From a virus, in the IMG/VR virus record IMGVR_UViG_3300015261_000016, positions 1 to 25,646 of that record: DNA of 25,646 nt; one strand, written 5' to 3'. Positions 4,246-23,054 of this stretch are shown piece after piece. Numbering within the stretch: the first letter of the stretch is position 1; each line of letters opens with the position of its first letter. The translations under genes were made by a program, and so were the position numbers. Below the pieces are notes generated by a model that searched no databases, was not told where the DNA came from, and saw nothing but the letters and a program-made list of their open reading frames with translations.

Positions 4246-4730
4246 GGCGCGGTCGCCCCGCCGGCCTTCCGATAGATGGAGAGCAGGTTGTCCAGCTTCT
4301 GCTCGTGCTGACCGTAGCCGGCACCGGGCAGGCTGGCCCAGATGTTGCGCACGGCCGCGATTGCCTCTGTGATCTTCCCCGCTTGGATCAGCGGCAGCGC
4401 ACGGCGCTCGCGGATCTGCTGCAGGGCGATCAGGTCTTGGCTCAACGGGCTGAAGTCCTTGAGGCCCAAGGTTCGGCGGTAGGCGTCGAAATACCGCCGC
4501 AACAGCTGGTAGCGTCCAGCAGCCGTCGATTGGATTTTCAGTCGGGGCAGGTCAACCAGCACCCGCGGGTGGTCGGCATACCCGCTGAAAAGTTGACCAC
4601 CGACAATTACGTCGTAGCCGCGGTCCTTGGTTGCCTGCCGTCCGTTGTCGGTCCCTTCAGACCACGCGAGCATGTCGAGGAAGGCCACGACGTTCGCGCC
4701 GCCAGCCTGTTTGGGGGTGACCTGCGCCAT
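4242..4730 (-). CDS. Endolysin, lambda R-type lytic transglycosylase
   Basis: The enzyme has 162 residues and closely resembles lambda endolysin R from memory: FLDMLAWSEGTDNGRQ, GYDVIVGGQLF, STAAGRYQLL, LGLKDFSPLSQDLIALQQI and NIWASLPGAGYGQ. Lambda R cleaves the glycan between N-acetylmuramic acid and N-acetylglucosamine, forming 1,6-anhydromuramic ends. The likely catalytic Glu is E25 in AWSEGT. No signal peptide is visible, so it accumulates in the cytoplasm until the holin opens. It is the first gene after the presumed late promoter. A good AGGAG site at 4739-4743 precedes the ATG. The order endolysin-holin-spanins is reversed for the first two compared with lambda. Confidence 0.95.
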   Translation of the reverse strand: MAQVTPKQAGGANVVAFLDMLAWSEGTDNGRQATKDRGYDVIVGGQLFSGYADHPRVLVDLPRLKIQSTAAGRYQLLRRYFDAYRRTLGLKDFSPLSQDLIALQQIRERRALPLIQAGKITEAIAAVRNIWASLPGAGYGQHEQKLDNLLSIYRKAGGATAP

Positions 4731-5046: not shown

Positions 5047-6228
5047 CTAGGGAATGAGTTTTTCCGCGTGACCTCGCATGATCACGTAGGGGCGCATCAG
5101 CGGATTCACAAAACGGTACCGAAGCTTGCGAGCAGTTCCGGTTCGCGTGATTATCCCTCCCCTGCCTTCCTCACTGAACTCTTTCAAATGCCGGGCGAAG
5201 TTGGGGATATCCAGCACGCGCCCTGCAATGCGGCTCAAGGGCGAGCGGACCGCAGCCGCAGTGAAGTAACCCATTTCGTCTACGTCCGCCATAGCGCAGG
5301 CTAGCAACACCTGCCGATAGATATTGCCAGGCTGAGGACTCTTCGTCGCGTAGTAGTAATCGGTCTTGATCGACTCTTGCCATTGGTCGAGAGAGTCAAT
5401 AATTCCCCCATCAGCGTCAACGCGCATCACGGTATCCGACCCTCGAACGATAGCGCGTCGCGCGGTGTTAAGCGCAAGCAGATGCGCGATGTATGGAAGG
5501 CCCTGAGAGAGACTGCGAAGGTGGGATTTTGCAGACTCATCCATCGTCATGGCTAAACGTGCCATTCCCTTCTCGAAAATCTGATCAATCTCCTCATCCG
5601 TCATGCGAGGCATGGGGATTTGCACCAAGGCGCGCTCGATCGAAAGATGGCCCTCAATCAGCTCCGAAATCGATTCAGCCACACCAATGAGGAGTAGTGA
5701 CGCAGCTACGCCGAAATCTGACAGGGCCTTGATAGTGTCGGCGACCAAGGTCTGTGTGCACCTGTCCTCAATCCGATCAAATTCATCAAATATGATCAGT
5801 ACCGGCATATGGGCACTCATCTGCGTGAGAACACGACGGACGTCGTCAGGCTGGACAGTACTGGGAAGACTGTCCGCAACAGAAACCATAGTGTGGCTCG
5901 CGGACGGATTGAAGCCCACTCCGGGATTGGTCTGGGTGAAGGTAATGTCCCGCAGCGCCTTCTTCCATAATGTAGAGAAGGTGTCGCTCGCATCGCAATT
6001 GACCTTGCCGATAATGTACGTGCCCTGGACCGCAGGGATCAGCATGTTCGCCAGCGACGTCTTCCCAACGCCTCGCTCCCCGAACAAGACGGCGTGGTAC
6101 CCCTTCTGGGATACCGCGCCGATGATGCGTCGGAGTTGGTCCAGGCGACCGGCGAAGAGGTCTTGAGTGTTCACTGGAGACCCAGGGGTAAAAATCTGGC
6201 CTGCGTGAATGTATTTGGCTTGATCCAT
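5047..6228 (-). CDS. AAA+ ATPase, ORC1/CDC6-like (cargo gene)
   Basis: The protein has 393 residues. Walker A is GERGVGKTS at 50-58 (K56). Walker B is LIIFDEFD at 144-151. A sensor-1-like strand LLLIGVAE is at 178-185, a candidate arginine finger is in SIERAL at 196-201, and a sensor-2-like GLPYIAHLL is at 243-251. The C-terminal 100 or so residues, with a basic end, could be a winged helix, giving the ORC1/CDC6 or STAND-like layout. The N-terminal TPGSPVNTQDLFAGR segment resembles the strand that leads into such ATPase domains. It sits between the antiterminator and the late promoter, where lambdoid phages carry cargo. Base composition is visibly less GC-rich than its neighbours, and it has its own promoter. 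Its function is unknown; a role in excluding other phages is inference. No effector domain is visible. Confidence 0.8.
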   Translation of the reverse strand: MDQAKYIHAGQIFTPGSPVNTQDLFAGRLDQLRRIIGAVSQKGYHAVLFGERGVGKTSLANMLIPAVQGTYIIGKVNCDASDTFSTLWKKALRDITFTQTNPGVGFNPSASHTMVSVADSLPSTVQPDDVRRVLTQMSAHMPVLIIFDEFDRIEDRCTQTLVADTIKALSDFGVAASLLLIGVAESISELIEGHLSIERALVQIPMPRMTDEEIDQIFEKGMARLAMTMDESAKSHLRSLSQGLPYIAHLLALNTARRAIVRGSDTVMRVDADGGIIDSLDQWQESIKTDYYYATKSPQPGNIYRQVLLACAMADVDEMGYFTAAAVRSPLSRIAGRVLDIPNFARHLKEFSEEGRGGIITRTGTARKLRYRFVNPLMRPYVIMRGHAEKLIP

Positions 6229-6255
6229 CTTCGGTCGCCTCGGCTAAGTGAGCAA

Positions 6256-6299
6256 AGGCTACCCTTGAAGCTTGAAAGGCGTCAAGTGTTTGGCCAAAC
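6256..6299 (-). promoter_or_regulatory. Promoter of the AAA+ ATPase with upstream palindrome
   Basis: Read on the minus strand, TTGACG (6280-6285) is followed after 18 bp by TAGCCT (6256-6261). The start site would be about 20-25 nt before the ATG at 6228. Immediately upstream of the -35 box lies a perfect 12-bp palindrome, GTTTGGCCAAAC (6288-6299), a plausible operator or activator site. The -10 box is weak (3/6). The presence of a private promoter fits a cargo gene expressed from the prophage. Confidence 0.4.
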
Positions 6300-6327
6300 C
6301 CATCAAGTAATGGCCGGCTGGCTGATG

Positions 6328-6861
6328 CTAAGCTGCTACTGCGCCACGCAGCCACTCCAAGCTCTTCCCGAGCTCATAGCGATACTGCCGGAGGGTCAGA
6401 GCGCCACCGTAACGCTCCGCAACCAAGCGGGCCTTCACAGCTTGGCTGGCCGAAGCCGTGAACTCGGTGCGAACGATCATTGCCCGGAGCGGGTGTTGCC
6501 GCTGCATGGAGGCCAGCGCCCTATCGACCCACCGCAGCTCGTCGGGGGTTCCCAGGTCGACGGCAATCTCGGGGTTGTCGTGCGGTTTGCTTGCGTCATT
6601 TGAGGATCGGATCGGATCCACAGCCCACATCGGCAGCGTGTGCATCCCGACCACGCCAGTGCGCGCACCCATGAAGCGCCGACGGTCGCCGCCGTCCCGG
6701 CCAACCAGCTCCCGTAATGCCCGCTCCCGAGTACCAGGCGCCAGATCCCGGGCATGCTGCAGCACGTGCACGCCGCGCTCGGCATGACTGAAGGCGTAGC
6801 GGTTCACCTGGGCATGGCCCCAACGGCGGAGGTCTTCGGTCAGAGGGTCATTGCTACGCAT
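6328..6861 (-). CDS. Putative Q-like antitermination / late regulator
   Basis: The protein has 177 residues and starts at the ATG at 6859-6861, 8 bp inside the upstream gene; a longer in-frame start at 6999 would overlap that gene extensively. The N-terminus is MRSNDPLTEDLRRWGHAQVN. The C-terminus, with RLVAERYGGALTLRQYRYEL and a closing SLEWLRG, has the look of the C-terminal helix-turn-helix of phage antitermination Q families (Phage_antitermQ / DUF1133 type). Q proteins load on RNA polymerase at the late promoter and let it ignore the terminator that follows. Position supports this: it is the last gene of the nin-like region, and the next element of the operon apart from the cargo ATPase is the late promoter. 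The family identification is moderate. Confidence 0.6.
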   Translation of the reverse strand: MRSNDPLTEDLRRWGHAQVNRYAFSHAERGVHVLQHARDLAPGTRERALRELVGRDGGDRRRFMGARTGVVGMHTLPMWAVDPIRSSNDASKPHDNPEIAVDLGTPDELRWVDRALASMQRQHPLRAMIVRTEFTASASQAVKARLVAERYGGALTLRQYRYELGKSLEWLRGAVAA

Positions 6862-7063
6862 CGCGAAGTTGCTCCAGTACATGATCATCGAATCGAAACG
6901 CCGGCAGCTTGCCATCGGTGTCGCAGGTGGCCACCCGGTCTGGCCAGCCCTTGCAGTGGTAGCCGGCGTCGCCCTGCCCCCGGAACTGGCAGACCGCACA
7001 CCGGCCGTTCTTCTTCAGGTAGTGGGCGTAGCGCTTGCGAAGCCGCAGCTCGGCCACCGTCAT
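6854..7063 (-). CDS. Small zinc-ribbon-like phage protein
   Basis: The product has 69 residues, with LRLRKRYAHYLKKNGRCAVC followed by further cysteines and a histidine (GYHCKGW, VATC). The Cys pattern C-x2-C ... H-C ... C suggests a small zinc-binding module. The start overlaps the resolvase stop (ATGA) and the 3' end overlaps the Q-like gene by 8 bp, so translation is coupled. Small zinc-finger proteins are common in lambdoid nin regions, but no exact family is recognised. Confidence 0.7.
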   Translation of the reverse strand: MTVAELRLRKRYAHYLKKNGRCAVCQFRGQGDAGYHCKGWPDRVATCDTDGKLPAFRFDDHVLEQLRDA

Positions 7064-7981: not shown

Positions 7982-8593
7982 ATGAACGTGGCTGATCCGA
8001 TGTACTGCGCAATGCCGTTTGATGCTCCTTGCATGAAGCCGGAGGTCTGGGCCGCTTGGGCGCAGGCAGTGCTTTCCGTAGCGGCGATTGCTGCCGCCGA
8101 ACGTTTCGCATCCCGAAGAGAGCGGAAAGAGCTTTCCAGAAAGACCGACGTCTACGTCAACCTTCTCTCGATGGCGGAGATTCGTTGCCATTCCCTCGCG
8201 ATGTACACGCCAGGAGATGTCAGGACGCTGAGAACTGGAAAATCCGTCAACGACTATCAGATTCGGGATATGGAACAGTTCGCGGCTGCGTTTCGTGCGA
8301 TCACGCTCCAAGATGTGCCTGACTACCGGCTGCTGCCACCTCTTCGTGATGCTGCGGATACATGCCAGATCTTGGTTGAGCATCTGAGCGGGATCGACGG
8401 CATCAAGCCGATGTCTATTACTGACGAATCGATGCACATTGGTAAGGAGATAAAGCACGCGCAGTGGCGCCTGAACCAGTGTTACCTGCAGGCTGCTGAG
8501 GTCTCCAATGAGTACGCGATTCCAAGCCTTTCGCAGCGCTGGCACCGAATCAAACTTGCCCTTCTGGCCAGGTTTAGCCGGCCGCGGAGCTGA
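7982..8593 (+). CDS. Single-pass membrane protein, antisense cargo gene
   Basis: This 203-residue gene faces against the leftward operon around it. The ATG at 7982 has an AGGGA site at 7971-7975, 6 nt away; a TTG at 7958 in the same frame is less likely. A membrane segment lies at about residues 22-40, followed by the basic stop-transfer stretch RFASRRERKE. About 150 helical, soluble residues follow with no recognised motif. Codon use includes ATA, AGA and GTA and is less GC-biased than its neighbours, a sign of transfer. It resembles the antisense protein at 20062-20652 in size, layout and a short motif after the membrane segment (E-I/V-x3-x-x-S-L-A). It is a candidate superinfection-exclusion protein by inference only. 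The complementary frame is open too; this strand is preferred on protein character. Confidence 0.7.
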   Translation: MNVADPMYCAMPFDAPCMKPEVWAAWAQAVLSVAAIAAAERFASRRERKELSRKTDVYVNLLSMAEIRCHSLAMYTPGDVRTLRTGKSVNDYQIRDMEQFAAAFRAITLQDVPDYRLLPPLRDAADTCQILVEHLSGIDGIKPMSITDESMHIGKEIKHAQWRLNQCYLQAAEVSNEYAIPSLSQRWHRIKLALLARFSRPRS

Positions 8594-9231: not shown

Positions 9232-10697
9232 GCGGCACCTGCTTGGGGAAGGTGGGCGGCCAGGCCGGAGCGCTTCTTCCGCGGCGCTGCCCCAGGGCTG
9301 TCCTCATTGGCCGCCGTCTGCTTCGGCTGCCACCATTCCGGCAGCGTGGAGAACCGGAAGTACTCCGGCTGGTACTGCACCCTCGCGATGCCGGGCGCGC
9401 CGTCGCGCTGGATGGCCACGATCAGTTCTGCCGTGCCCTCCCAGCGGCTGTCCTTGTGGTAGATCTCGTCGCGGTAGATGAAGATCACCGCATCGGCGTC
9501 TTGCTCGATCGAGCCGGAGTCGCGGAGGTCGGCCACGATGGGCCGCTTGTCGCCAGGGCGCTTCTCCACGTCGCGGTTGAGCTGGCTCAGCAGCAGCACG
9601 GCGATGTCCAGCTCGCTGGCAAGCAGCTTCAGCGCGCGCGTGATGTCACCGATGCCGGAGGCGCGGTTGTCACCGGACACGTGCATGAGCTGCAGGTAAT
9701 CGATGACGACCAGAGCCAGCTTCGGGTCCTGCGCCTTCATGCGCCGTACCTGCGCGCAGACGTGCTGGACCTTCGCGATGCGGGGCCGGCTGATACGGAT
9801 GGATGCCTCGCCGATCCTACGCGTCCACTCGGTGACGTTCTGCCAGTCGATCTCGTCCAGGTTGCCGCTCCTCAGCTTGTTGCCGCTGATGCCGGCCTGG
9901 TTGCACAGCATCCGCTTGCCGAGCTCCTCGGGCTTCATTTCGAAGCTGAAGAAGGCAACCGAGCGGTCCAAGCGCAGGGCCACGTATTCCGAAATGTTCT
10001 GCGCCAGCGTGGTCTTCCCCATCTTCGGGCGCGCCGCCAGAACGTAGAGTCGACCGGGTTGCAGCCCGTCCAGAATCACATCGAGGTCCCACATGCCCAC
10101 GGGCAGGCCGGTGATCCCGTTCGGCGTCGTGGCTGCCCGGCTGATCTGGTCGAAGACACGCGCCATCACCGGTGCCACCGGCTCCAAATCGCAGGGCTCG
10201 TTGTCCAGCAGACCGCCGATACGGCTCTGTGCTTGGCCCACCAGGTCCAGCGCGCTGCGCCCTTCCGGGCTGTACGCAGCGTCGATCAGGTCGTGTCCGG
10301 CATCGATGAGCGCACGCAGCTTCGCTTTCTCGGCCACGATCTCAGCGTAAGCAACGATGTTGGCTGCCGACGGCGTGGTGGAGCTCAGCTCGATCAGGTA
10401 GGCACCATCGCGCACTTGGTCCAGCTTGCCGCGCGACTCGAACCATTCGCCAATGGTCACCGCATCGAACTCGGTCGGGCGAATGGCCTCCATCGCCTGC
10501 CAGATGAGCCGGTGGTCATGCCGGTAGAAGCTGTCCGCACTCAGCAGGTCAGCAACGTCATCCCAGGCGCGGTGGCGCAGCATCAAGCCACCCAGCACTG
10601 CCTGCTCAGCGTCGACGCTGTGCGGCGGCAGGCGCAGGGCCTGCTGGTCCCCGTACAGGCCGGCCAGGCGATCCGTTTCGTCCCGAAGCCCGCTCAC
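9228..10697 (-). CDS. dnaB: Replicative DNA helicase, DnaB family
   Basis: The protein has 489 residues. The N-terminal DnaB domain (about 22-130) begins PPHSVDAEQAVLGGLML. The RecA-like ATPase domain has Walker A ARPKMGKTTLA at 222-232, Walker B LVVIDYLQLM at 329-338, SQLNRDVEKR at 371-380 and the LRDSGSIEQDAD motif at 391-402. A Pro/Lys tail ends the chain. The hexamer would be loaded at the phage origin by the protein encoded immediately upstream. Carrying its own DnaB, as P22 gene 12 does, removes the need for a lambda P-type loader of the host helicase. The start is GTG at 10695-10697, overlapping the upstream stop (GTGA). Confidence 0.97.
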   Translation of the reverse strand: MSGLRDETDRLAGLYGDQQALRLPPHSVDAEQAVLGGLMLRHRAWDDVADLLSADSFYRHDHRLIWQAMEAIRPTEFDAVTIGEWFESRGKLDQVRDGAYLIELSSTTPSAANIVAYAEIVAEKAKLRALIDAGHDLIDAAYSPEGRSALDLVGQAQSRIGGLLDNEPCDLEPVAPVMARVFDQISRAATTPNGITGLPVGMWDLDVILDGLQPGRLYVLAARPKMGKTTLAQNISEYVALRLDRSVAFFSFEMKPEELGKRMLCNQAGISGNKLRSGNLDEIDWQNVTEWTRRIGEASIRISRPRIAKVQHVCAQVRRMKAQDPKLALVVIDYLQLMHVSGDNRASGIGDITRALKLLASELDIAVLLLSQLNRDVEKRPGDKRPIVADLRDSGSIEQDADAVIFIYRDEIYHKDSRWEGTAELIVAIQRDGAPGIARVQYQPEYFRFSTLPEWWQPKQTAANEDSPGAAPRKKRSGLAAHLPQAGAA

Positions 10698-11701
10698 GCT
10701 GCATCCTCCGACGCCGCCCGGTCAGCCAGCTTGGCAATGACCGTCTCGCGCAGCAGGTATTCGAAGTCTGGCCGCCAGTTTTCGTGCGGCGCAGTGTAGG
10801 GCCCATTCCCGTTGTGAAAGTCGTCGCCGGCAGCCGTTTCGAAGTAGGCCTGCCAGAACTGCGGCGTCACCTTCTCGCTGCCGAACATCGCCTGACACAG
10901 TTGGCGCACGGTCGGCAGGGCCTTCTCCACGGCCTTGAGGCGCGGCCTGTTGACCACGGTGCAGGCCGGCAACTGACCGTTTGGCTTGGCCAGGACGGCG
11001 TTGTAGGCGGTGCGGGCGTCCTCGAAGATCTGGCGGATCCGGTCTGCTCGCTTTGCCTTGAGGTCAGCCGGGGCAGACGGGTCGCCCGTCAGCGCAAGCT
11101 GCGGGGACGACTCCGAGCGAAGCGAGGAAGCTTCTTCCTGTTCCTGTTCCTGTTCCTGTTCCTGTTCCTGTTCCTGTTCCTGTTCCTGTTCCTGATTAGG
11201 CATAGCCTTCGGGGAAGGCTTTCCGGAAGCCTTCCCGAAAGCCTTATCGAATGCCTTGGTGAAAGCCTCTCCAAGCCCATAAACAAAGGCCCTAAGCGCG
11301 TCCAATGCTTCCCACTTCAAGGGGCATTCGGGAATGAGGTCGAACTCTGCCGCCCAACTCAGGACGACGTTGGGCGACTCCGGCCGGTTGTGGTTTATCG
11401 CCTTCGGAACCCACACAACCCGGGCCTTAAAGTCGGCCTTGACCATGCCTTCCCGAAAGGCTTCCCCGAAGGCTTTGTCGAAGGCTTCAACTTCCCAATC
11501 CAGCTCTTCGGCCATAGCTGCCCGGCCTGCGCGAAACAGGCCAGGGATGGGGCCAGTGTGGGGTCCAGTGATCAGGAAGAGCCAGAGGCCCTGCCCGCAC
11601 GGCGGCATCGGCGACAGGCGGCGGAACTTCTCGTCCCCCCACGTGCGCACTTCGACCTTCCGATAACGACCTTTGGCCTGGCGGACGTCTGTCTCAGCCA
11701 T
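10694..11701 (-). CDS. Putative replication initiator with Gln-Glu repeat linker
   Basis: The protein has 335 residues. The N-terminal 130 or so (RYRKVEVRTWGDEKFRRLSP, GLWLFLITGPHTGPIPGLFR, VVWVPKAINHNRPESPNVV) have the pattern of phage replisome-organiser winged-helix domains. A linker follows with four-residue repeats of the type KAFG/KAFD at 145-168 and a run of ten Gln-Glu pairs at 170-189. The C-terminal domain (about 215-335) is helical with TVRQLCQAMFGSEKVTPQFW. It lies directly before dnaB, so it likely binds the origin and loads the helicase, as lambda O/P or P22 18/12 do. The repeats in its own gene may be that origin. Function rests on position and N-terminal pattern. Confidence 0.75.
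   Translation of the reverse strand: MAETDVRQAKGRYRKVEVRTWGDEKFRRLSPMPPCGQGLWLFLITGPHTGPIPGLFRAGRAAMAEELDWEVEAFDKAFGEAFREGMVKADFKARVVWVPKAINHNRPESPNVVLSWAAEFDLIPECPLKWEALDALRAFVYGLGEAFTKAFDKAFGKASGKPSPKAMPNQEQEQEQEQEQEQEQEQEQEEASSLRSESSPQLALTGDPSAPADLKAKRADRIRQIFEDARTAYNAVLAKPNGQLPACTVVNRPRLKAVEKALPTVRQLCQAMFGSEKVTPQFWQAYFETAAGDDFHNGNGPYTAPHENWRPDFEYLLRETVIAKLADRAASEDAA
11135..11194. repeat. Perfect hexanucleotide tandem repeat (TTCCTG)10
   Basis: Ten exact copies of TTCCTG fill 60 bp; on the coding strand this is (CAGGAA)10, encoding Gln-Glu pairs at residues 170-189 of the replication protein. The unit is a multiple of three, so slippage changes linker length without breaking the frame. 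Identical codons at all ten units point to recent expansion. Confidence 0.98.
11198..11269. repeat. Iteron-like 12-bp repeats, cluster A (candidate origin)
   Basis: Six tandem 12-bp units lie in phase: AGGCATAGCCTT, CGGGGAAGGCTT, TCCGGAAGCCTT, CCCGAAAGCCTT, ATCGAATGCCTT, GGTGAAAGCCTC. The consensus is close to CCCGAAAGCCTT. They encode the KAFG/KAFD four-residue repeats in the linker of the replication protein. In lambda the origin iterons likewise lie in the linker-coding part of gene O, so this is a candidate replication origin. The function is inference. Confidence 0.75.
11440..11487. repeat. Iteron-like 12-bp repeats, cluster B
   Basis: Three clear units (CCCGAAAGGCTT, CCCCGAAGGCTT, TGTCGAAGGCTT at 11452-11487) and one degenerate unit before them (TGACCATGCCTT at 11440-11451) repeat the same 12-bp motif as cluster A, about 170 bp away. 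They encode DKAFGEAFREGM at residues 75-86 of the replication protein. Sharing of one DNA motif by two separate parts of the gene favours a DNA-level role. Confidence 0.7.
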
Positions 11702-19805: not shown

Positions 19806-20059
19806 GCCGGACAATCTCCCGCCGCGCGCCGAAGCGCAACGGCGGCTTCTCCTGGGGCCGGTACCCGATGGGCAACACCGGTGTTATCGCCTATCGGCTG
19901 TTCCGCCGTGACCTGACCGGCGCCGTGCACTTCGAAGGGCTGGATTTCTACCCGCAGGACAACCGCCGCGATGTGGCGATCGCGCTTCGTGCGGCGTGCC
20001 ACCGCCTTCGCGATCGCGTGGATGACCTGGACCTCGTTTCTCTCGGAGTGGCAGCGTGA
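19802..20059 (+). CDS. Small hypothetical phage protein
   Basis: The product has 85 residues and starts in a 4-bp overlap. The N-terminus is basic (MSRTISRRAPKRNGGFSWGR), then a beta-rich middle (VIAYRLFRRDLTGAVHFEGL) and a helical end. No family is recognised. It is the last operon gene before the antisense membrane-protein gene. Confidence 0.65.
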   Translation: MSRTISRRAPKRNGGFSWGRYPMGNTGVIAYRLFRRDLTGAVHFEGLDFYPQDNRRDVAIALRAACHRLRDRVDDLDLVSLGVAA

Positions 20060-20061
20060 TC

Positions 20062-20652
20062 TCAGCGGCCAGCCGGCACCAAAAAGACGCGACGAGCTTT
20101 CATCACGCCGTGGATCAGCTGCGCCTCCGAGTGCATGCGGCGCGCCGTTTTCTCAAGAGCTTCGAGGACTCCCACGGCCTGCTCGTCGCTGGCCAGCTCA
20201 CCGGCATTTACGGTAGTGCGAAGAAGGCTGAGCGTACCTTTCAGCCGGGACAGCGAGTAGCAGAGTTCATCAGGAAGCACGTGCAGGCGGTCGAAGTGAG
20301 CGTCCACCTCCGGAATTGCCAGAGTTTCCGAACGACGCGCGACCGCGACGCGAACTTCCGAATCATGGGCGTAGCGCTGCCCATCCGATTCAACGTACTT
20401 GAGGAACGTTGCAAGGCTGATCGCAAGCATGCCGACTTCGCCCTCAAACAGGATGGTCAGGATGTCGGCTTCACGTTGTCGAATACGACTGTTCTCTGCG
20501 TCGGTTCGGCTGACTTGCTTGTTTGCTTGCCTGCCAAGGTAGGCCACAGCCACCGCGCCTGCGAGCGCCACCAACGCGGCCGCCATTCCCACTATGACTG
20601 CGGCCCAATCCGCGAGCGATCCGATGTCGCCACTGATCGTGAAAGTTCCCAT
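20062..20652 (-). CDS. Single-pass membrane protein, antisense cargo gene
   Basis: The gene points against the rightward operon. It encodes 196 residues from ATG 20650-20652, with AGGAGG 7 nt upstream; an ATG 6 bp earlier (20656-20658) is also possible. A strong membrane segment lies at about 14-39 (DWAAVIVGMAAALVALAGAV), then RQANKQVSRTDAENSRIRQR, then a soluble helical domain. A short stretch EVGMLAISLA after the membrane segment recalls EIRCHSLAMY in the antisense protein at 7982-8593. The C-terminus is basic (HGVMKARRVFLVPAGR). No family is recognised. It is a candidate membrane-located exclusion protein by layout only. The complementary strand is open too, but this strand has the better ribosome site and protein character. 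Confidence 0.75.
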   Translation of the reverse strand: MGTFTISGDIGSLADWAAVIVGMAAALVALAGAVAVAYLGRQANKQVSRTDAENSRIRQREADILTILFEGEVGMLAISLATFLKYVESDGQRYAHDSEVRVAVARRSETLAIPEVDAHFDRLHVLPDELCYSLSRLKGTLSLLRTTVNAGELASDEQAVGVLEALEKTARRMHSEAQLIHGVMKARRVFLVPAGR

Positions 20653-20687
20653 TCCCATCCCTCCTCCCTGTTGGAGCCGATTCTGCC

Positions 20688-20825
20688 ATGAACTGCATCC
20701 ACCCCAACGACCGCGCGTATGCACTCGAGCTCGCCCTGGCCGCAGCCACTGCCCAAGACGAGGACCGCAAGGTGCTGGAAGACCTCCGCGAGATCCTGGC
20801 CGAGGCCCGGCGGGACGCCCGCTGA
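20688..20825 (+). CDS. Small acidic hypothetical protein
   Basis: The product has 45 residues: MNCIHPNDRAYALELALAAA and a charged helix KVLEDLREILAEARRDAR. A GGAG lies 11 nt upstream. Its TGA shares a base with the ATG of the next gene. No family is recognised. Confidence 0.55.
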   Translation: MNCIHPNDRAYALELALAAATAQDEDRKVLEDLREILAEARRDAR

Positions 20826-21142
20826 TGAGCGCCTTGGTGCTGGCGCCGGCCACAGGCCCTACCCCGGGCCGGATGAAGCAGCCGACCAAGGCAGCCCTGC
20901 GCCACTGGCTGGTGCTGGCCGCCGAGCGGACCGAGCAGTTGCAGGCGGAGCTCGCCGAGCTGCGCGCCGCCGGCGCCACCACCAAAACCCAGCGCGAGCA
21001 GCTGCTGGCCGAGCTGGTCGAAGCCTCCGTCAGCCTCGGGCACCACGAAACGCTGCGCAGCAGCAGCGACGAAACCATCGAATTCTGGCGCGCCGAGGTT
21101 CAACGCCTTCGCGCCGCCCTCAACGGAGAAACCCATGGCTGA
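20825..21142 (+). CDS. Coiled-coil hypothetical protein
   Basis: The product has 105 residues. Start ATG 20825 is chosen for its overlap with the previous stop; a longer frame from 20594 would lie antisense to the membrane-protein gene. Residues 30-100 are an almost continuous coiled coil (ERTEQLQAELAELRAAG, QLLAELVEASVSL, EFWRAEVQRLRAALNG). No family is recognised. It overlaps the methyltransferase start by 8 bp. Confidence 0.65.
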   Translation: MSALVLAPATGPTPGRMKQPTKAALRHWLVLAAERTEQLQAELAELRAAGATTKTQREQLLAELVEASVSLGHHETLRSSSDETIEFWRAEVQRLRAALNGETHG

Positions 21143-23054
21143 CGGCTCCCGCTCGCCAGACATCCGCATCACCCCGAAGTCCCGCACCCGGACCGCATTG
21201 GTAGGGGACCTGTTTTGCGGTGCCGGCGGACTGTCCAACGGCGCGGCGCGCGCCATGCGCGAGCTGGGCCGGCCAGTGCAGCTGATCGCTGTGAACCACT
21301 GGCCGGTCGCCATCGAGACGAACCGGCGCAACCATGCGGATCACGCCAACCGCATCCACTGCGCAGACCTTGAATCGGCCCTGCCGCTGACGTTGGTGCC
21401 CGAGGGCCGGCTGGACCTGCTGATTGCTGCGCCGTCGTGCGTCTTCCACAGCCGCGCCCGGGGCGGCCGGCCCGTGCACGATCAGCAGCGGATGGATCCC
21501 TGGCACGTAGTGCGCTGGTGCACCGAGCTGCGCGTTACCCGCATCTTGGTGGAGAACGTGCCGGAGTTCATGGACTGGGGTCCGTGCAGCCTGGTCACCG
21601 GCCGCCCGATCAAGTCCCGCCGCGGCGAGTACTTCCGCGCTTGGGTAGCGGCGCTGGAGGCCGTGGGGTTCAAGGTCGACTGGAAGGTGCTGACCTGCGC
21701 CGACTACGGCGACCCCACCACCCGCCGCCGGTTCTTCCTCATTGGTCGCAGCGACGGCAAGCGCCTGCGCTGGCCAGAGCCGAGCCATGACCGCGTCGGC
21801 GGTACCGACCTGCTGGGCAGCCGGCAGCGCTGGCGCGGCGCGCGCGAGGTGATCGACTGGACGATGACCGGCAACAGCATCTTCCGCCGGAAGAAGCCGC
21901 TGAAGCCGAACACCCTGCGCCGGATCCTCGCGGGCGCGCAGAAGTACCGCTGGCCGCAGCCCTACGTCGATGCTGTGCAGGCGCTGCTGGACGGCACGAC
22001 TCCGCGCCTGGTGTTCGACCGCGCGGAGGCTGTGGCCCAGGGCCTGATCGAAGTCGACCCGATGCTGGTCCACCTGCGCGGCACCAGCCAGCAGCACCTG
22101 CAGGCGACTGCGAAGTCGGTGGACGTTCCCCTGCCCGCCCTGACTGCCGGCGGCGGCCATGTGGGGCTGGTGCTGGCCACGGGCAGCGGCGGCGCAGCGC
22201 GCGACCTCGAACAGCCCTTGCCCACGATCACCACCGGCGGTGCCGGTAGCGAGCGCCCCGGCAACGCGCGGCCGCAGCTGGTGGAGCCGATCATCGTTCC
22301 GACGTCGAACAGCAGCAGCGCCGGCGTGCCGCGCTCGGTGGCCGACCCAATCCGGACGGTCACGACAGCGAAGGGCGGCGATCAGGCCATGGCCGTGCCG
22401 TTGGTGGCTCCCTACTACGGCGGCGGCTCGGGCCTTACCGCCGCATCCGTGTCGGAGCCGGTGCCGTCGGTCACCACCAAGGCCCGCTTCGGTCTGGCCG
22501 AGCCGGTGCTGATGCGCGCCTCCCACGGCGACAGCGACGGCCGTGACCCGGCTGGCCGCGTCCTGGACTTGGACGGCCCCCTGCCGACCTTGACCGCTGC
22601 CGGCGGCGACATCAGCGTGGCGCAGCCGATTGTCATGCGTGGCAACGTCGGTACCGGCCGCACCGGCGACATGCGGCCGGCCACTGAGCCGATGCCTACG
22701 ATCACCTGCAGCGAATCGCTGGCGCTGGCCGAGCCGTTCACCATGCCGGTCACCCATCACGGCCACGACCGCACGCGCGGCATGGGCGATCCTCTGCCGA
22801 CCGTGACCGGCGCCAACCGGGGGGAGCTGGGCCTGATCCAGGCGGCCGCCGAGCTGGCCGACCAGATCGAGATCGACATCAACTACCGCATGTTGCACTG
22901 GCGGGAATTGGCCAGGGCCACTTCGTTCGACGACGAGGGAGAGGTCTACGATTTCGCCGGCACCGCCACTGAGATCACCAAGCAGATCGGGAATGCCGTC
23001 CCGAACCGCACCGCGAAGGCGCTGGTCAAGTCGCTGATGCAGGAGGCCGCATGA
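21135..23054 (+). CDS. DNA cytosine-5 methyltransferase with repeat-rich target domain
   Basis: The enzyme has 639 residues. Motif I is DLFCGAGGLSNG at 25-36. Motif IV is APSCVFHSRARGG at 99-111, where the catalytic Cys102 sits in PSC instead of the usual PCQ, as in some phage enzymes. Motif VI is ENV at 140-142. Motif VIII-type RRRFF is at 197-201. QIGNAVPN at 617-624 closes the catalytic fold. Between about 330 and 560 lies a long variable region with seven PLPTxT-type repeats. It transfers a methyl group from S-adenosylmethionine to C5 of cytosine. No restriction partner is seen nearby, so it probably protects phage DNA from host restriction. The target sequence is unknown. Confidence 0.93.
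   Translation: MADGSRSPDIRITPKSRTRTALVGDLFCGAGGLSNGAARAMRELGRPVQLIAVNHWPVAIETNRRNHADHANRIHCADLESALPLTLVPEGRLDLLIAAPSCVFHSRARGGRPVHDQQRMDPWHVVRWCTELRVTRILVENVPEFMDWGPCSLVTGRPIKSRRGEYFRAWVAALEAVGFKVDWKVLTCADYGDPTTRRRFFLIGRSDGKRLRWPEPSHDRVGGTDLLGSRQRWRGAREVIDWTMTGNSIFRRKKPLKPNTLRRILAGAQKYRWPQPYVDAVQALLDGTTPRLVFDRAEAVAQGLIEVDPMLVHLRGTSQQHLQATAKSVDVPLPALTAGGGHVGLVLATGSGGAARDLEQPLPTITTGGAGSERPGNARPQLVEPIIVPTSNSSSAGVPRSVADPIRTVTTAKGGDQAMAVPLVAPYYGGGSGLTAASVSEPVPSVTTKARFGLAEPVLMRASHGDSDGRDPAGRVLDLDGPLPTLTAAGGDISVAQPIVMRGNVGTGRTGDMRPATEPMPTITCSESLALAEPFTMPVTHHGHDRTRGMGDPLPTVTGANRGELGLIQAAAELADQIEIDINYRMLHWRELARATSFDDEGEVYDFAGTATEITKQIGNAVPNRTAKALVKSLMQEAA
22128..22808 (+). repeat. Seven degenerate protein repeats in the methyltransferase
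   Basis: The hexapeptide P-(L/V/M/I)-(P/R)-(T/S/A)-(I/V/L)-T occurs at residues 332, 361, 405, 442, 482, 519 and 553, with spacings of 29, 44, 37, 40, 37 and 34. Most units are followed or preceded by a (V/A)(E/Q)P(I/V/F)-type strand (for example VEPIIV, AEPVLM, AQPIVM, AEPFTM). Copies are divergent at the DNA level, so they are old. Confidence 0.8.

Follow-up and report, generated by a model that had tools for sequence, protein, structure and literature searches.

Noncontiguous operons, defined in S. aureus, are known from prophages through tha/ith of phage 80alpha (PMC11087260) and tai/ati of phi80 (PMC11364771). The locus analysed here resembles these in that an accessory or immunity-type gene, equipped with a leader of its own, is turned against the direction of an operon in a temperate phage. 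It is also like a phage moron, in that a putative promoter accompanies the additional gene and related phages have the site empty or otherwise filled. Morons are generally described as independent transcription units only, and the gene here is unlike them in being nested antisense in a coupled operon and in being bridged, that is, spanned in the operon direction by an open reading frame (the bridge). A further likeness is to antisense overlapping pairs such as olg1/gene 10 of Pseudomonas phage Fc02 (PMC9936078), with long open frames on both strands, of which one strand is expressed during lysogeny and the other as part of the lytic operon, a division that would probably hold here as well. Unlike in the Fc02 pair, the operon-sense product is not conserved here and openness alone is. 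The junctions of the bridge, RTGA at its start and ATGA at its end, are like those of translational coupling in polycistronic mRNAs and may pass ribosomes from gene to gene, although in contrast to ordinary coupling the linking ORF appears to be without a product to conserve.

Two features set the locus apart from the published noncontiguous operons, in the portions of the reports available: selection for an open operon-sense frame, and coupling of this frame to a gene on either side. The phi80 tai gene carries 15 in-frame TTA, CTA or TCA codons, which are stops on the operon strand, and is not bridged. Thus bridging is not universal, phi80 tai being the one case checked outside Lysobacteraceae. 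The architecture is known, as a noncontiguous operon with a moron-like gene, and the bridge is the new part; a literature search that left out most subscription journals and preprints found no account of selected openness across antisense operon genes. The locus is probably a bridged noncontiguous operon, in which a moron-like cassette lies backwards in a coupled operon and the bridge is selected for the passage of ribosomes.

The window, that is, the whole 25.6-kb stretch of an IMG/VR virus record that was analysed, has its nearest relatives among temperate phages and prophages of Stenotrophomonas and Xanthomonas. A reading of the sequence without database searches (the sequence-only reading) had described, in a rightward operon of the window, a plus strand open for 211 codons from GTGA to ATGA over a minus-strand gene, and this layout is exact (Table 1). 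The TGA of the upstream gene (20057-20059) is overlapped by the bridge GTG (20056-20058), and the next gene starts with an ATG at 20688 that the bridge TGA (20689-20691) overlaps, so that stop and start overlap at both bridge ends, as in translational coupling. The start that had been used for the minus-strand gene, here called the cargo, is its second in-frame ATG, at 20652. The bridge is in the operon-sense frame that is codon-aligned with the antisense gene, and can therefore be open only if this gene avoids TTA, CTA and TCA. The leader holds a putative extended -10 (TGGCAGAAT), which may serve as promoter, together with the cargo's Shine-Dalgarno. On the operon strand, this leader gives the bridge end LLEPILP and then GGAG before the downstream ATG.

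Table 1. Features of the two bridged sites in the window.
Feature	Position	Strand	Remark
Upstream operon gene, RLFRRD family, 85 aa	19802..20059	+	GGAG 7 nt ahead of bridge GTG
Bridge ORF, GTG to TGA, 211 codons	20056..20691	+	Openness kept across homologues, product not
Embedded antisense cargo gene, 198 aa	20062..20658	-	ATG at 20658
Cassette leader CATGGCAGAATCGGCTCCAACAGGGAGG	20659..20690	-	Common to most membrane-type cassettes
Downstream operon gene, IHPNDR family, 45 aa	20688..20825	+	ATG overlaps bridge TGA
Second bridge ORF, ATG to TGA, 217 codons	7952..8605	-	Leftward operon
Second embedded cargo gene, 203 aa, putative single-pass membrane protein	7982..8593	+	Weakly like family B

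A search with the window cargo protein alone found no relatives in the viral contigs, the genome contigs and the phage collection, and the neighbouring upstream gene was therefore taken as the anchor. This gene has 22 relatives in viral contigs, and 97 loci were obtained in all; the wider survey drew its genomes from the bacterial family to which the Stenotrophomonas genome of L025 belongs. The upstream and downstream operon genes are both conserved among relatives, and the cargo is thus a gene of opposite orientation nested in an operon with conserved flanking genes, as in a noncontiguous operon. The extra gene is missing at the same site in L015, L019 and L022, as is seen with morons; there the site is empty and the upstream stop overlaps the downstream ATG directly (GCATGACC). 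Other relatives have the site filled by genes in the operon direction or by antisense genes of several kinds, namely families A, B and C plus two unrelated cargoes (L036, L087). The window cargo is a distant member of family A (about 25% identity), and families A and B are not mutually alignable. A bridge is present over families A, B and C, over the unrelated soluble cargo of L036 and over that of L087, at several non-homologous sites. The leader CATGGCAGAATCGGCTCCAACAGGGAGG also precedes other downstream genes, at several sites, and therefore travels with the cassette.

The hotspot also takes sense accessory genes of the MNTERTEKFVNA... and MNAHNEQ... types with variable C-termini (L025, L045, L046, L049-L051, L065-L068, L073-L078). 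Genome G375 (L148, L161, L162) carries three cassettes of the membrane protein family in tandem. In L347, around 1500-2050, a homologue of the soluble L036 cargo resembles an integron gene cassette in having similar inverted sequences on either side.

The exact coupling at both ends had been singled out as the notable point of the locus, an emphasis that the empty sites in L015, L019 and L022 take away, since they already supply the junctions. The empty site is the source of the Shine-Dalgarno motif as well as of the junctions, and the leader may have inherited its phase with the cassette. Thus the RTGA and ATGA overlaps are not evidence by themselves. Among 55 embedded genes, 44 have their most coding-like upstream stop in the phase that brings an overlapping RTG into the bridge frame (one third expected; p = 1.6e-12), and all 42 TGA stops among the 44 are part of GTGA (25) or ATGA (17). 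A Shine-Dalgarno-like motif is found at a usable distance from 35 of 45 bridge starts, compared with 17% for control RTGA anywhere. For 42 of the 73 embedded genes the end of the bridge is precisely an ATGA; the other ends are an in-frame run into the downstream gene or, at another site, an 8-nt overlap (ATGGCTGA). In L013/L014, for instance, the bridge frame (6255-7052) does not end at ATGA but continues as an in-frame fusion to the downstream gene. L053/L057 were rejected as exceptions in phase: around 4255-4270 an apparent frameshift in the upstream gene shifts its stop to TAG, and the older GTGA bridge start is still present at spacer 8.

Profile searches over all loci returned 91 distinct family genes. 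Genes with the leader made up the embedded set (73, or 69 after clustering), and 11 homologues without leader and without nested coupling made up the non-embedded set; genes were chosen by protein profiles and leader alone, and bridge openness was never a criterion. The embedded genes (15,736 codons, GC3 about 0.63) contain 18 TTA, CTA or TCA codons, of which six come from L144, a gene counted here although it is outside any opposite operon, and the non-embedded genes (2,250 codons) contain 46. This corresponds to 0.23 against 4.09 per 200 codons, or to 18/2,151 against 46/357 Leu and TCN-Ser codons (Fisher p = 2.8e-26; per-gene rank test p = 2.2e-9). In the 69 clustered embedded genes the share of A-ending codons is 0.7% in TCN and 0.5% in CTN, compared with 12-26% in the other fourfold boxes. 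The depletion is specific to the bridge frame, the other two frames of the embedded genes having 7.4 and 4.6 per 200. Host genes with GC3 of 0.58-0.68 have 2.81 per 200 (0/11 with zero), and where cargo in this site runs with the operon and has GC3 below 0.75 the rate is 1.78; at these two rates about 140-220 would be expected in the embedded set, where 18 are seen. Selection for an open operon-sense frame, suspected in the sequence-only reading, is thus supported by the frame-specific depletion and by the conserved phase of the bridge relative to its two ends. The survey of homologues at other loci that had been proposed as a check agrees, with embedded genes nearly free of the three codons and non-embedded genes carrying them, and with an effect larger than had been thought. 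Selection for openness, tied to the nested context, is strongly supported.

Ordinary GC-rich codon bias, by which TTA, CTA and TCA would simply be rare and the junctions coincidental or inherited, is highly improbable as an explanation. It is true that long antisense frames stand open over several plain genes of the window, that only 0.14 such codons per 200 occur in host genes of GC3 above 0.9, and that empty sites already have the junctions. However, the cargo GC3 is about 0.63, host genes, sense cargo and non-embedded homologues all have far higher rates than the embedded genes, and other A-ending codons are common in the latter. GC bias as the sole cause is refuted by these comparisons, and the idea of inherited junctions with GC bias and nothing more was dropped, as embedded and non-embedded homologues differ strongly. 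Avoidance of the codons for the cargo's own translation (tRNA supply) or as sequence motifs has next to no probability: although the three codons are rare in these hosts, they are used by non-embedded homologues within the same bacterial family, and as trinucleotides they occur commonly in the remaining two frames of embedded genes.

Selection tied to the nested context is also seen in closely related genes. L144, which is preceded by the leader and whose protein is 90% identical to that of embedded L021, has neighbours in its own orientation and no operon of the other orientation around it; six forbidden codons are present in L144 and none in L021. The embedded copy of the unrelated L036 cargo has 0 in 202 codons at GC3 0.76, and its homologues outside the site have 7 in 203, 3 in 100, 2 in 207 and 1 in 227 (GC3 0.80 for the last). 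One or two residual stops occur in L301, the second copy of L148, L302, L152 and L195. In L003, L319, L159 and L137 the in-gene stops are inside the last 15 codons of the bridge, so that the untranslated gap would be short. Same-site homologues with in-frame stops, named beforehand as the contrary case, are limited to L060, where TAA replaces RTGA in a sequence cut off by the contig end, and weakly to L003, with a single stop about 60 nt upstream of the downstream ATG.

To which strand the selected protein belongs is seen from substitutions. In 84 homologous pairs, 6567, 5294 and 11181 substitutions fall at antisense codon positions 1, 2 and 3, respectively, and in the pair L129/L202 identity is 0.92 for the antisense protein and 0.66 for the sense product. 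The excess at position 3 and these identities indicate that the antisense protein is the selected product; purifying selection on amino acids was not found for both frames together. The operon-sense product is free to change while staying open, and it has no match to a Pfam or PHROG family. That both strands are functional, the operon-sense ORF being a true overlapping gene with a relevant product, is accordingly very unlikely. The gene-like start of the bridge, its Shine-Dalgarno-like motif and its couplings would fit such a gene, as would the precedent of Pseudomonas phage Fc02, in which each of two opposite overlapping genes gives exclusion (PMC9936078). However, substitutions concentrate at antisense position 3, which is sense position 1, the sense identity of L129/L202 is much the lower, and the bridge product differs with each unrelated cargo.

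The AlphaFold model of the window cargo (pLDDT 87) has a long N-terminal helix with a membrane segment followed by a helical bundle; the protein is a predicted single-pass membrane protein. Nothing significant was found for it in Pfam, PHROGs, NCBIfam or PADLOC, and it is not assigned to a known defence family there; fold searches with the model gave generic helical bundles alone, with no E value under 0.001. The cargo family is rapidly diversifying and exchanged at fixed sites, and several cassettes can be present in one phage (for example L129, L148, L202 and L227). These features, together with the analogy to prophage immunity genes carried by noncontiguous operons (PMC11087260, PMC11364771), suggest that the most likely role of the cargo may be exclusion of, or defence against, other phages, a proposal for which the case is evenly balanced.

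The real protein is that of the minus strand, hypervariable, membrane-anchored and helical, and most likely expressed from its own leader in the lysogen while the operon is silent. The bridge, starting at the upstream stop (RTGA) and ending at the downstream start (ATGA), would be translated from the operon mRNA; ribosomes crossing the antisense gene would prevent Rho-dependent polarity on this mRNA and would be handed to the downstream gene by reinitiation. It is likely, though somewhat less so than the bridged operon as a whole, that the bridge ORF is a product-free new genetic element, kept by selection solely so that ribosomes can cross the antisense gene. Polarity appears to be the most likely reason for translating the bridge, although the sequence does not tell it apart from other reasons. 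In the available text on phi80, the late operon is controlled by the antiterminator Q (PMC11364771), which would ease polarity; the unbridged tai gene thus fits the polarity model, as one case.

The open frame could alternatively silence the cargo, with translation supporting transcription through the cargo promoter after induction, and with downstream expression secondary. In the parts of the reports available, the noncontiguous operons of S. aureus phage 80alpha and of phi80 serve as lysogeny-lysis switches for prophage immunity genes (PMC11087260, PMC11364771), which lends this some plausibility. It is nevertheless unlikely, because silencing would not need the bridge to reach the downstream start with a stop or an in-frame fusion at the ATG, as it does, and because several of the residual stops are at the very end of the bridge.

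Selection here acts on translatability rather than on a product, on the strand opposite a real gene. If the bridge does serve the passage of ribosomes, it would explain how noncontiguous operons, now recognised as carriers of prophage immunity genes, avoid polarity where transcription would end in an untranslated antisense stretch, and it would mean that phages can place interchangeable genes of an immunity-like kind in reverse orientation within closely coupled operons and leave the operon unbroken. It also calls for caution in annotation and in claims of overlapping genes, as long coupled antisense ORFs may be selected without a functional protein. Loss of TTA, CTA and TCA in one strand context could be used as a signature in seeking backward cargo in other GC-rich phages.

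The second site of the window (Table 1) repeats the junction design in an operon running the opposite way, as had been pointed out, with ATGA at 8605-8602 and at 7955-7952. The short motif that was said to be similar in both cargoes is weak: the second cargo matches the family B profile at E = 2e-4 only and does not match that of family A. The warning that openness alone is weak evidence was justified, since, at GC3-matched rates, the two window genes taken alone would both lack TTA, CTA and TCA with a probability of about 0.004-0.03; unlike in these two genes alone, the signal is overwhelming once homologues are pooled.

Other genes of the window have features of their own. An ATPase-like gene on the minus strand of the leftward operon (5047-6228; GERGVGKTSLANML) resembles another accessory gene. 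A gene of the replication region (10694-11701) has a long low-complexity (EQ)n run, the opposite strand of which reads FLFLFLFL. The ORF at 21135-23054 is like a C5 cytosine DNA methyltransferase, and its C-terminal half has repeated (E/D/G)P(L/M/V)P(T/S)(I/L/V)T motifs.
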